Positions 17,683 to 22,382 of a stretch of 33,526 bases of DNA are shown here, one piece after another. The translations under genes and the position numbers were made by a program. Source of the DNA: Acidobacteriota bacterium (GTDB lineage Bacteria > Acidobacteriota > UBA6911); the NCBI GenBank assembly GCA_016933615.1, contig JAFGAO010000156.1, positions 1 through 33,526 on the forward strand, given 5' to 3'. The notes under the pieces were generated by a model, which saw only the letters and a program-made list of their open reading frames with translations, searched no databases and was not told the DNA's origin. Within the stretch, counting starts at the first letter, position 1, and each line of letters opens with the position of its first letter.

Positions 17683-17793
17683 AATTCTATGGTGGCGCTT
17701 TGGAGTATTTGATCTACAATGGGAACAGCTTTTTCTAATCAATTAGTAAAGGATGGATCTGGTTTCAGTCTGTTTACCCGGGAGGCTTTATCT

Positions 17794-19569
17794 ATGAGGA
17801 AAAAAACGGCAGGCATTCTGGTCGCCGCTCTGATTGCGGCGTTCGCCCTTTCCTACGGATGGGGAGCCGACGAAGAAAAAATTGTTGTGATGAATCCGCG
17901 GGGCATTATGCCCGAAATACGCAAGATTCCCATGGCGCCGCGCCCGGCAACCTTGGACGGCCGGACCGTATACATCGTGGATACCAAGTATCCCAATACG
18001 AAGCCGTTTGTCGAAGAGCTCTTTGCCGCGCTGAAAGAAAAGTATCCCAAAACGAACTGGGTGCTGCGGGATAAGTTTGCCGGCTACATGGACGACGATC
18101 CGAAACTGTGGGCCGAGATCAAGGAAAAGGAGGCCTGTGCCATCGTGCTGGTAGGCCATTGAAGCAGCTGTTCGCCGGCGGTCGTCGGCCACGCTGTGAC
18201 GCTTGAAAGAATGGGCGTGCCCTCCGTACCCATGATCACGCAGAGATTTGAGGAGCTGGTGACAACCATCGCCTATAAAAAGGGAATCCCCAACATGCGG
18301 ATCACCTATACGCCCCATCCGATTACGGACAGGCCGGCGGAGCTTTGCCGGCAATACGTCGCGGGCAACGATCCGCTCACGGGCCGGCCCATGCTGGAGG
18401 AGATTTACGACAGTTTGACCCGGCCGCTGTCGGCGGAAGACGCCAAGGCGGGATTTCTCAAGCGGGATCCGCGGCCCAGGCTGATCGGGCCCGACACCCG
18501 CGATAAACTCATGGAGTATTTCCATGAGCAGGGCTTCACCGACGGCAATCCGGTCATTCTTCCCACCGAGGAGAAGGTCGATGAAATGCTGAAGGCGACA
18601 AGCCGCGAACGGGATGAATGGGTGGGCCAGATGCGTCCCTCTCCTCCGCACGAAGCCTGGTATTACACGGTCGAGATGGTGGCGGTCAACGCGGTTATGG
18701 CGGGCGCCAAACCCGATTACTTCCCGACCATTCTGGCACTGGCCTCCAAGGGCGTCACCTCGCTTTTCAGCTCCACGTCCTCTTTCGCCAGGATGGCCGT
18801 AGTCAACGGACCCATTGTCGAGGAAATCGGCATGAACACGGGCATCGGAGCCCTCGGCCCGATGAGCCGGCCCAATTCTTCCATCGGCAGAAGCTGGACC
18901 CTGATCTCCAAGAACCTGGGCGGGTCGGGGAAACCCGGGGAAACCTACCTGGGCAGCCAGGGAAACCAGCTCAATTACAACAACCTCTGTTTTCCGGAAA
19001 CGGAGACCGGCCTGCCCGAAGGCTGGAAGCCCCTGCACGTGCAGAAAGGATTCGACAGTTCCGACAGCGTCGTGAGCATCTTCAGCGGCTGGAGCATCAA
19101 TGACATCGCGTGGTACTCTCCGCTGCCTATCCATGAAGTCATCCGGGGCTGGCTGGAAAATTTCTTTTCCTTCGGGGTGTCCCAGGCTACGCTGATTCTC
19201 GATCCCATTGTCGCGGCCGATGTGGCGTCCAAAGGGTTTGCGTCGAAGGAAGCCTATGCCAGATACCTTGCGGACAATACCGGAACTCCGGGCTGGCTCT
19301 ACTGGTCGGAGCATCCGAAGGAATTGAAACAGGCGGAATCGGGCGTGGAGCCTTATGCAGGCTGGCTGAAAAGAGGCAAGGATACCGTCGTTCCCGTTTC
19401 CCGCTACAAGGGAGGCCGAAGAGGCAGCTCGAGCTTCCTGGCGTCCAAGGACACCAACGAACCCACGACTTCCATAGAAATCGTCGTCACCGGAGGGGGA
19501 ACGAATACTTTCTGGTCAGGCGGAGATTTCGGGTATGTGGGCAGCGCTTCCGTGGACCATTGGAGATAG
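17794..19569 (+). CDS. exported UGSC-family selenoprotein, in-frame UGA at codon 123
   Basis: The gene starts at ATG 17794 (GGAGG at 17781-17785) with a signal peptide (RKKTAGILVAALIAAFALS, cleavage probably after GWGA). The frame is interrupted once, by TGA at 18160-18162, and continues unchanged to TAG at 19567, 591 residues in all. Around the TGA the protein reads VGH-U-SSC-SPAVVGHAV, a U-x-x-C redox motif matching the UGSC family of bacterial selenoproteins, with Ser in place of the usual Gly. The strong conservation-like sequence on both sides (ERMGVPSVPMITQRFEELV after; KEKEACAIVLVGH before) and a SECIS-like hairpin directly downstream argue for selenocysteine rather than a nonsense mutation. 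The redox role is inferred from the motif; the substrate is unknown. A longer frame from 17719 lacks a ribosome binding site. Conceptual annotation without Sec would split this gene into two pieces. Confidence 0.85.
18163..18198 (+). promoter_or_regulatory. bacterial SECIS-like hairpin after the selenocysteine codon
   Basis: GCCGGC (18174-18179) pairs with GTCGGC (18184-18189, one G-U pair) around a GGTC loop (18180-18183), and a lower stem GCAGC (18164-18168)/GCTGT (18193-18197) can also form. The apical loop begins 17 bases after the TGA and has G at its first two positions, which fits the spacing and loop rules for bacterial SECIS elements that recruit SelB. Confidence 0.7.
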
Positions 19570-19582
19570 GAGAGATAATCGT

Positions 19583-20152
19583 ATGAAAAACAAACTCGCA
19601 ACGCTTGTTATAGTCCTGCTGGTATCGACGGTTGCCGCGTCTCTCCGCCCTGCAGCTGCCCAGGATAATTCTTCGACCAATCCGGCGGACGTGGGTTCCC
19701 GGGTGCGCTCCATGGTCGAACTCGGCTCGGTCTACTCGAACATCTATGACATTGCCGTCACCGTTGTTGAAACGGTTCGGGGACAGAAGGCGATGGAGCG
19801 ATTGAAAGCCGCCGCCCCGGAAAATCCGGCGCCCGGCGAAGGCTTTGAATATGTGCTGGCCCGGATCAAATTCGAGCACAAGGGCAGATACGTTTCCGAC
19901 AACATGAGCTTTGATCTCGGGAATGCGCCTCTGCAGTGGGTTGCTCTGTCTTCAGACTTGACCGAATATCCCAGGATTTCGGTTGCGGTTCCCAAGCCGC
20001 CCCTGGTCGGGATGGTGAAGCCCGGGGGTTCGGCGGAAGGCTGGGTTGCGTTCGCGGTGGATAAAAATGACCGCGGCCCGGTCATGGTGTTCGACCCGGA
20101 TACCGGGGGCGCCACCGGACGCGGCAAGACCCTGTTCTTCAAACTATACTGA
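19583..20152 (+). CDS. exported DUF4352-type protein
   Basis: A 189-residue protein with a signal peptide (KNKLATLVIVLLVSTVAASL, cleaved near AAAQ) and an immunoglobulin-like beta domain of DUF4352 type: SNIYDIAVTVVETVRG, EGFEYVLARIKFEHKG and the closing VKPGGSAEGWVAFAVDKND. Such domains are extracytoplasmic and often bind proteins. It starts 13 bases after the selenoprotein stop, behind TAGGAGAGATAATCGT, so the two are probably co-transcribed and may work together in the periplasm. Choosing ATG 19583 rather than 19535 is based on the signal peptide and ribosome binding site. Confidence 0.75.
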   Translation: MKNKLATLVIVLLVSTVAASLRPAAAQDNSSTNPADVGSRVRSMVELGSVYSNIYDIAVTVVETVRGQKAMERLKAAAPENPAPGEGFEYVLARIKFEHKGRYVSDNMSFDLGNAPLQWVALSSDLTEYPRISVAVPKPPLVGMVKPGGSAEGWVAFAVDKNDRGPVMVFDPDTGGATGRGKTLFFKLY

Positions 20153-20633: not shown

Positions 20634-22382
20634 TTAAAAAGAATCGGCAGGATTATTCGGGGTACCCTGCACCGTTTTCGGGAGATTGAAAAACTTGACG
20701 ATGCCCTCCGCCGTAATCCACAGAACGATGATGACGATGATGCCGTTGACCGAGAACAGTAACCACTCGAGCTTGTCGAGGAATTCAACCTGGTTCATCA
20801 GCGAAGCCCAGATCGTCATCACGGCCATGAAAACGGCCGGAATTCCTGCGACCAGCCAGTGCAGGGAGCCCCTGCGGCGCAGGTAGAGCGTGACGACGAT
20901 CAGGGCCAAGGCCGCCAGCGTCTGGTTCACGGCGCCGAACATGGGCCAAAGCGTCAAAGCCCCTTTCCCGTCGGCGCCGGTGGCGAATGCCAGAAGAGCC
21001 GCCGTCACCACGACGAAAAGGGTTGCAAGGCGCCGACCGCGGAAAATGCTGATTTTCATGTCGGAGGCGAGTTCGTTGACGACATAGCGCTGGATGCGCG
21101 TGGCCGTGTCCAGGGTGGTTCCGGCAAAGGATGCGACGAAGACCCCCATGATGACGACGGCGATCTCGTGCGGAATGCCGGTTGACTCAATCATGTTGGC
21201 GGCGCCGATTACGAAGGCGCCGACTTTGGATCCCAGTCCGTCCGCGGCGGTCCAGGAGGCGTAGTGCGTGGTCCATGCCGACACCCCCGTGAGCGTTTCC
21301 CCGGAGGCCGTGGTATATCCCATGCCGATTCCGGCTGCTACGGCCGCAGTGACCAGGATCGCCAGAACGCCTTCGATCAGCATGGAGCCGTAACCGACAA
21401 ACTGGGCGTCCTTTTCATTGCTTACCTGCTTGGGGGATGTGCCTGAGGAGACGAGCGCATGAAAACCCGATATGGCGCCGCAGGCAATGGTAATAAAGAG
21501 AAAGGGCCACATGGGAGGCGCCGCTTCAGGGTTCAGCCGAAGCGGCGGCGCGACCAGTTCCATGCCGCCCCCCAGGGAGCTGAAAAATACGCCCGCGACC
21601 ATGAGGGCCATGGCAATCAGCAGCTGGTAGGCATTGATGAAATCCCTGGGCTGCAGCAGCGTGGTGACCGGCAGCACGGAGGCATAGTATGCATAGATCA
21701 GGAGAAGAACGGTCCAGACTCCGGTTGCGGGAAGGCCCAAGATTGAAGGCATCTCCAGGGGCAAGTAGCGCCCGACAATCATGATGCCGTACATGAGCAT
21801 GACGGCCGCAAGGGAAGCGACGGTTGCATTCCCCCCCCTCTTGTAGATGACGTAACCCAGTCCCAGGGAAATCGGAATCTGCAGCCAGACTGGGGCGACG
21901 GAGTTCGGATACATGCTGAATATAATGGCGATGATGAGGCCGAATATGGCGATAACGATCCAGAGGGTTATAAACACGACGATAAAGAAGAGAAAACGCG
22001 TGCGGACGTTGATGTAACGGGCGGTGAATTCCGAAAGGGATTTGCCCTGGTTGCGCATCGAAATGATGAGGATGCCGAAATCGTGAACGGCGCCCATAAA
22101 AATCGAGCCGATGAATACCCAGAGCAGGGCGGGAACCCATCCCCAGATTATGGCGATTGCGGGTCCGACAATCGGCCCGGTGCCGGCGATGGAGGTAAAA
22201 TGATGCCCGAAAATAATTCCTTTGCGGGTCGGCACGTAGTCGATGCCGTCTTCCATTTCTTTCGCGGGAACGGGCGCCAGGCCGGATACCCTGAAAATCC
22301 TTTTAGCGATGAAGCGCCCGTAGGTCCAGTACATCAGGATGTAGCCGAAAAAAGTGACCGCGAGTATCAGAAGCGTATCCAT
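20634..22382 (-). CDS. cstA: carbon starvation protein CstA family transporter
   Basis: A 582-residue polytopic membrane protein with the family hallmark GHHFTSIAGTGPIVGPA near the N-terminus, preceded by YVPTRKGIIFG, and about 14 to 16 hydrophobic segments. CstA proteins take up peptides or pyruvate during carbon limitation; the E. coli paralogues are about 100 residues longer at the C-terminus, so this is the shorter form common outside enterobacteria. No two-component partner is adjacent. An inverted repeat and other hairpins lie in the 357-base upstream gap to the rubredoxin gene. The ribosome binding site is weak (GGGACTG). Confidence 0.9.
   Translation of the reverse strand: MDTLLILAVTFFGYILMYWTYGRFIAKRIFRVSGLAPVPAKEMEDGIDYVPTRKGIIFGHHFTSIAGTGPIVGPAIAIIWGWVPALLWVFIGSIFMGAVHDFGILIISMRNQGKSLSEFTARYINVRTRFLFFIVVFITLWIVIAIFGLIIAIIFSMYPNSVAPVWLQIPISLGLGYVIYKRGGNATVASLAAVMLMYGIMIVGRYLPLEMPSILGLPATGVWTVLLLIYAYYASVLPVTTLLQPRDFINAYQLLIAMALMVAGVFFSSLGGGMELVAPPLRLNPEAAPPMWPFLFITIACGAISGFHALVSSGTSPKQVSNEKDAQFVGYGSMLIEGVLAILVTAAVAAGIGMGYTTASGETLTGVSAWTTHYASWTAADGLGSKVGAFVIGAANMIESTGIPHEIAVVIMGVFVASFAGTTLDTATRIQRYVVNELASDMKISIFRGRRLATLFVVVTAALLAFATGADGKGALTLWPMFGAVNQTLAALALIVVTLYLRRRGSLHWLVAGIPAVFMAVMTIWASLMNQVEFLDKLEWLLFSVNGIIVIIVLWITAEGIVKFFNLPKTVQGTPNNPADSF

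Follow-up and report, generated by a model that had tools for sequence, protein, structure and literature searches.

An apparently exported UGSC-type selenoprotein fused to an unnamed C-terminal domain, its expansion in one Acidobacteriota genus, and its probable remote kinship with GrdB/PrdB

The window analyzed here is a stretch of 33,526 nucleotides from an Acidobacteriota bacterium (contig JAFGAO010000156.1, positions 1 to 33,526). A gene of 592 codons lies on its plus strand at 17794-19569. The frame holds a single internal stop, the TGA at 18160-18162 (codon 123), and is closed by a TAG. With selenocysteine (Sec) at residue 123, the product has 591 residues, in which a UGSC domain is fused to a C-terminal domain, and the flanks of the Sec site translate as VGH-U-SSCSPAV. 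An earlier note on this DNA, made from the sequence alone, had described an intact frame with one TGA, and this description is borne out. Its expectation that gene callers would split the gene is also correct, as a mechanical list of open reading frames cuts it into two pieces, 17719-18162 and 18196-19569. The sequence GGGAGG (17780-17785, plus strand), 8 bases upstream of the ATG, reads like a ribosome-binding site. A small gene of 189 residues with a hydrophobic N-terminus follows on the plus strand (19583-20152), its ATG at 19583 lying 13 bases past the selenoprotein gene, and its relatives are present beside several of the closest copies of the locus. The spacing given in the earlier note was right, but its assignment of this neighbor to DUF4352 was not sustained, since the match reaches 14.3 bits (E 0.051) where the cut-off is 25.9. 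Just downstream, a gene for a CstA carbon-starvation family transporter (439.7 bits) occupies 20634-22382 on the minus strand.

Conservation of the frame was examined in the 16 closest copies, several of which share one genome and are thus not strict orthologues. Differences among them number 13300, 10105 and 33848 at the first, second and third codon positions of the plus strand. A 508-codon open reading frame overlies the selenoprotein gene on the minus strand (window 17788-19314). An antisense gene was rejected because the differences fall at third positions of the plus strand and 13 of the 16 copies do not keep the antisense frame intact; we regard this open reading frame as a side effect of codon usage. 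The TGA is the sole in-frame stop of the selenoprotein gene in each of the 16 copies. At the Sec site, 58 of 62 distinct aligned sites have TGA; CTG, GGC, GCC and TCC occur once each, and a Cys codon never. The 62 sites were drawn from the phylum sample, contigs of named genomes and fetched stretches. The named contigs provided 13 loci, from eight Acidobacteria MAGs, three Gammaproteobacteria, one Deltaproteobacteria and one Chloroflexi; several of these contigs duplicate DNA found in the window's genus, in keeping with a genus of Acidobacteriota, and such rows were merged. Chance and base-calling error are excluded by the sole in-frame TGA in the closest copies and its recurrence at the aligned sites. 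The window's genome (298 contigs totaling 3.62 Mb, with a completeness of 82%) contains all the genes for Sec insertion that the earlier note had proposed to look for: a tRNA-SeC identified by ARAGORN, selA (560.9 bits), selB (382.6 bits) and two selD genes (373.0 and 356.5 bits), the protein genes all scoring over cut-off. Each selD has one in-frame TGA.

A hairpin of six base pairs at 18174-18189 on the plus strand follows the TGA and is a candidate bacterial SECIS element. On folding, 18174-18179 pairs with 18184-18189 around a GGUC loop at 18180-18183. The earlier note had the stem begin 17 bases after the TGA; that distance leads to the apical loop, and the stem itself begins after 11 bases. 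The stem and the GGUC loop form as the note proposed, but they are not unusually stable (z -0.61), and 50 of 200 shuffled sequences fold equally well. Each of the 16 closest copies can form all six pairs. Synonymous identity, measured pairwise among these copies at 218 codons of conserved residues, reaches 0.91 at codons 123-132 (the TGA included) versus 0.51 gene-wide, the highest of 91 codon windows. The first pair is C-G instead of G-C in one relative (L077). Distant and stand-alone rows do not have the stem seen in the window, and many of them form another hairpin nearby, as judged by eye. The candidate SECIS is supported by synonymous-site conservation and not by its stability, and its position and GGUC loop fit such an element. 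Taken together, a UGA conserved in frame, a conserved hairpin behind it and the Sec machinery indicate that the TGA at 18160-18162 almost certainly inserts Sec.

The joined protein matches the Pfam UGSC model (PF24696) over residues 32-190 (17887-18363, plus strand) with 105.8 bits, where the gathering cut-off is 25 bits. Its score against the NCBIfam equivalog NF041046 is 75.1 bits, below the curated cut-off of 125. The UGSC family named in the earlier note is therefore recovered by Pfam and not by the NCBIfam equivalog, and the Pfam match together with the Sec machinery supports a UGSC-family selenoprotein with a U-x-x-C motif. The partner of Sec in this motif is Cys126 (18169-18171, plus strand), a nearly invariant residue that at least 90% of 35 UGSC domains share. 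The note had pointed to U-S-S-C as a motif with Ser for Gly; the motif was read correctly, but it is no oddity, since the two middle residues differ widely among paralogues. The window protein shares the domain, the U-x-x-C motif and the use of UGA as Sec with the published UGSC selenoprotein (PF24696, NF041046). It differs in its apparent export, its fused domain of about 350 residues, middle residues that are not always G-S, and its many paralogues. We class the protein as a variant within the UGSC selenoproteins. It is not filed under GrdB/PrdB because its UGSC domain scores below every curated cut-off of that group (TIGR01917, TIGR01918, NF040794, TIGR04483 and the like). Zhang and Gladyshev 2008 (PMC2398784) describe UGSC fused to a domain called 'Unknown_1', which may be the domain seen here; with 255 sequences in their GOS table, UGSC is one of the most abundant selenoprotein families of aquatic metagenomes.

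The N-terminus of the window protein resembles a signal peptide (residues 1-25; 17794-17868, plus strand), with a hydrophobic stretch behind a start rich in K/R. Its mean Kyte-Doolittle value is 3.03 across 12 residues, a crude measure of hydrophobicity that agrees with the signal peptide proposed earlier. By one such crude measure, a strongly hydrophobic N-terminus is present in 29 of 34 testable fused rows versus 0 of 29 stand-alone rows, with the start codon picked to favor a signal in both sets. Two further fused rows had no N-terminus, and two rows were set aside from the stand-alone set: L081+, which is truly fused and scores low, and a copy at L058, which is cut by the contig end and scores high. 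A signal-like N-terminus was found in 13 of the 17 UGSC copies of the window's genome. It is very probable from these N-termini that the window protein is exported.

The UGSC family is greatly expanded in the genus. A full PF24696 scan of the window's genome identified 17 UGSC places, 15 of them over cut-off. Read singly, 16 of the 17 have TGA at the Sec site, and the remaining copy (C181) has Met. The 16 motifs are USSC (the window), USTC (two), UDGC (three), USVC (two), USQC, USLC, UPGC, UGSC, UWGC, UHGC, U-U-G-C and one U without Cys. The C-terminal domain is present in 16 of the 17 copies, the exception being the C44 paralogue. In each of nine further genomes of the genus there are 10-28 UGSC places, 148 in total, with 145 over cut-off and 121 with a TGA inside the match; this TGA count is an automatic tally within the match, and the site itself was checked for part of the copies. 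For the ten genomes together, a TGA lies inside the match in 137 of 165 UGSC copies. No UGSC place was found in two sister genomes belonging to the same family, and genomes outside the genus have 0-2 (a 396-genome sample, with up to 8 candidates scored per genome). At the Sec site, 27 of the 28 TGA-less copies were examined and have Ser (13), Met (8), Thr (2), Leu, Asn and Gly (one each) or a gap (one), and never Cys. Homologues with neither Sec nor Cys were seen in the earlier note as speaking against a Sec site. These 27 copies are of that kind, but they are a minority among the 165 and leave the Sec reading standing.

Two lineages of paralogues have unusual Sec sites. An adjacent TGA pair within G-G-U-U-G-C occurs in two genomes (in the window's genome as L137 on C14, and elsewhere as L180 on G113:C289), possibly encoding a Sec-Sec pair. 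A TGA-less lineage, G-D-M-G-T-S, has Met for Sec and no Cys (L173-L179 and L139); it occurs once in the window's genome and once in each of seven further genomes of the genus. The large UGSC paralogue family, with 10-28 places per genome in the genus, is new here. Neither this expansion nor a link to GrdB/PrdB was found in the consulted parts of the literature on UGSC and on large selenoproteomes.

The genes near UGSC places in relatives include an aldehyde ferredoxin oxidoreductase and a Tat-type Fe-S protein at one locus (L053) and a rhodanese at another (L057). In the window's genome, a distance of 4 kb or less from a UGSC place was found for AOR in 3 of 14 cases and for MoCoBD in 2 of 12, where 0.49 and 0.42 are expected (P ~0.0025); this test is post hoc, picked once the neighbors were known. 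A link between UGSC places and these two kinds of gene is no more than suggestive. At one locus of the window's genome (L146, C253), two UGSC paralogues lie about 8 kb apart with a MoCoBD match between them, and the interval has genes that by eye resemble those for molybdopterin oxidoreductase and 4Fe-4S proteins.

The unnamed C-terminal domain comprises residues 233-591 (18490-19566, plus strand). Comparison of 24 rows with Pfam and NCBIfam identified no recurring family, PDB sequences gave no match at E 1, and Foldseek gave no fold match at E 0.001. The weak Foldseek rows, mostly class I fumarate hydratases (E 0.12 or worse, rmsd near 17), were dismissed as noise, and a comparison with PF09338 showed no resemblance (0.3%). 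Two residues on the plus strand are invariant in the 24 alignment rows, Cys399 (18988-18990) and Glu402 (18997-18999). All 16 paralogues examined in the window's genome have Glu402, and 7 of them have Cys399; the absence of Cys399 from the other 9 weakens it as a catalytic partner of Sec. In other lineages the domain is encoded by a stand-alone gene, and a UGSC gene lies within 750 bases of it in 27 of 29 fetched loci, a count made after hand-merging seven duplicate rows. In one of the remaining two loci the UGSC gene is 2.3 kb away; in the other, L041, a UGSC match lies about 0.5 kb away. Thirteen shorter second copies of the domain, all from one family, have no UGSC place nearby in the scan of the 396-genome sample, which argues against a fixed pairing of the two domains. 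Among five full stand-alone proteins, two have an AhpC/TSA domain in front, one has a sub-cut-off thioredoxin match, and two have nothing. The fusion of UGSC to a domain of about 350 residues that occurs elsewhere as a separate gene is new here, unless 'Unknown_1' is this domain.

The C-terminal domain could itself be the catalyst, with UGSC as an accessory electron carrier or sensor whose Sec only shuttles electrons. Such a role would agree with its retention in TGA-less copies (26 of 26 fetched rows, 203-343 bits), its stand-alone occurrence and the invariant Glu402. However, the searches of Pfam, NCBIfam, PDB and Foldseek found no catalytic family or fold for the domain, and most copies in the genus keep the TGA in the UGSC domain, and we consider this role unlikely, though worth keeping in mind.

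The UGSC domain itself is probably remote kin of GrdB/PrdB, the selenoprotein subunit of glycine and D-proline reductase, as several sequence comparisons suggest. GrdB/PrdB-type proteins are cytoplasmic amino-acid reductases that work with a pyruvoyl-type partner. When the 35 UGSC domains were compared with NCBIfam (E 1 or lower), the families recurring besides UGSC were GrdF (15 of 35), GrdB (15), TIGR01918 (6), GrdH (5) and PrdB (4), and 11 further families occurred once each. The GrdB/PrdB matches are individually weak and span 45-75 residues, with a best E of 0.0011 and, for the window domain, 0.069 and 0.079 (11.8 bits each). When the UGSC alignment was compared by hhalign with an alignment of 13 GrdB/PrdB-like sequences, the probability was 89%, and both the Sec and the Cys residues of the two groups fell in register. 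In the controls, masking of Cys left 84%, reversed sequences gave 0.2 and 1.0%, and the best of 60 block shuffles reached 73%. Fused UGSC rows alone reached 92%, stand-alone UGSC alone 58%, and single GrdB/PrdB sequences 1.5-83%. Searches of 3914 ORF segments point the same way in both directions. The first six non-UGSC matches of a UGSC HMM are all GrdB/PrdB loci (E 0.0009-0.51; next other match 2.4). With a GrdB/PrdB HMM, which scores the window copy at E 1.6e-4, the first 30 matches outside its own loci are all UGSC rows (next other E 0.86), L123 being set aside from this ranking because it spans the gene beside L102. The rankings are not independent trials because the rows are related.

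The two groups also have a common layout. In GrdB/GrdF/GrdH and PrdB (TIGR01917, TIGR01918, NF040794, NF040795, TIGR04483), as in UGSC, Sec stands in a U-x-x-C motif after a beta strand, followed by a helix, then E-x-x-G-[IV]-P, and later HP. A difference is that searches of the window's genome (G000) found no match to PF09338, the pyruvoyl-type partner; PF07355 (GRDB) had no match there either. The Pfam GRDB model stops just short of Sec, which may be why Pfam holds no link between UGSC and GRDB. PF07355 matches occur in 75 of 297 genomes of the phylum, and short PrdB-like proteins with a U-P-x-C motif (L103-L120) are present in many phylum genomes, mostly without a full GrdB. A search for PDB relatives of UGSC and of GrdB/PrdB found none. 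The predicted UGSC structure, of moderate confidence (pLDDT 72.9), is alpha/beta with Sec between a strand (115-121) and a helix (126-139), and Foldseek with this model gave no match at E 0.001. The predicted order of three beta-alpha units, before and at Sec, differs from that of thioredoxin. A Rossmann-like alpha/beta fold with Sec at the start of a helix is supported by the model, not proven.

A thioredoxin-like fold is suggested for UGSC in published work. The window protein would then be an exported thiol-disulphide oxidoreductase of a Dsb-like or peroxide system acting on proteins or oxidants. The U-x-x-C motif is a classic redox motif, and the AhpC/TSA and thioredoxin matches in front of stand-alone C-terminal domains are in keeping with this role. 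On the other hand, the Pfam matches of the 35 UGSC domains include no thioredoxin-like family, no thioredoxin is among the 50 Foldseek matches listed for the moderate-confidence model, the order of the predicted beta-alpha units is unlike thioredoxin, and the recurring NCBIfam matches are to GrdB/PrdB. Up to 28 paralogues would also be unusual for a housekeeping thiol pathway. On balance, we put the odds of a thioredoxin-like role at about one in four. Far less probable, and rejected here, is a reading of the TGA as an ordinary stop, as a sequencing error or as the mark of a decaying pseudogene: the split in standard gene calling, the ordinary stability of the hairpin and an additional in-frame TAA in the C44 paralogue could be cited for it, but the 58 TGA sites, the intact frame with its third-position differences, the synonymous conservation of the hairpin region and the complete Sec machinery stand against it.

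We favor an exported two-domain selenoenzyme of the GrdB/PrdB type that has been duplicated and diversified, and give this reading as a whole, apart from the exact substrate, a probability of about 60%. After export, the selenolate of Sec123 would attack a small organic substrate. The C-terminal domain would hold the substrate while Sec123 reduces or cleaves it. Cys126 would resolve the intermediate by forming a selenylsulphide, and reduction of the selenylsulphide by a thiol or another electron donor would follow. Paralogues with differing residues between Sec and Cys may differ in substrate. For the chemistry alone, a reductase reaction of the GrdB/PrdB type has slightly less than an even chance.

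Reductive dehalogenases are tandem respiratory reductase families that are exported, have many paralogues per genome and are presumed to be diverse in substrate. The window family resembles them in its apparent export, its number of paralogues per genome and its presumed range of substrates. It differs in having selenium chemistry and no corrinoid, haem or Fe-S site, and no sequence kinship is claimed. For Syntrophobacter fumaroxidans, at least 39 selenoproteins of all families are given (PMC5029168). Beside that number, 16 UGA-bearing copies of one family in an 82% complete genome, and 20 in another genome by the TGA tally, are large. Since gene callers cut such genes in two, annotated genomes probably under-report the family. 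Sec was never swapped for Cys in the 27 TGA-less copies examined, which bears on the question of why Sec persists. If the link to GrdB/PrdB is true, the UGSC family gains a testable chemistry. More tentatively, one Acidobacteriota genus may have moved the selenium chemistry of glycine and proline reductase outside the cytoplasm. Each genome would then have up to about 28 exported selenoenzymes with their own residues beside Sec and their own genomic partners, some of them tungsten or molybdenum oxidoreductases, and these enzymes would reduce many organic compounds, perhaps as respiratory acceptors.
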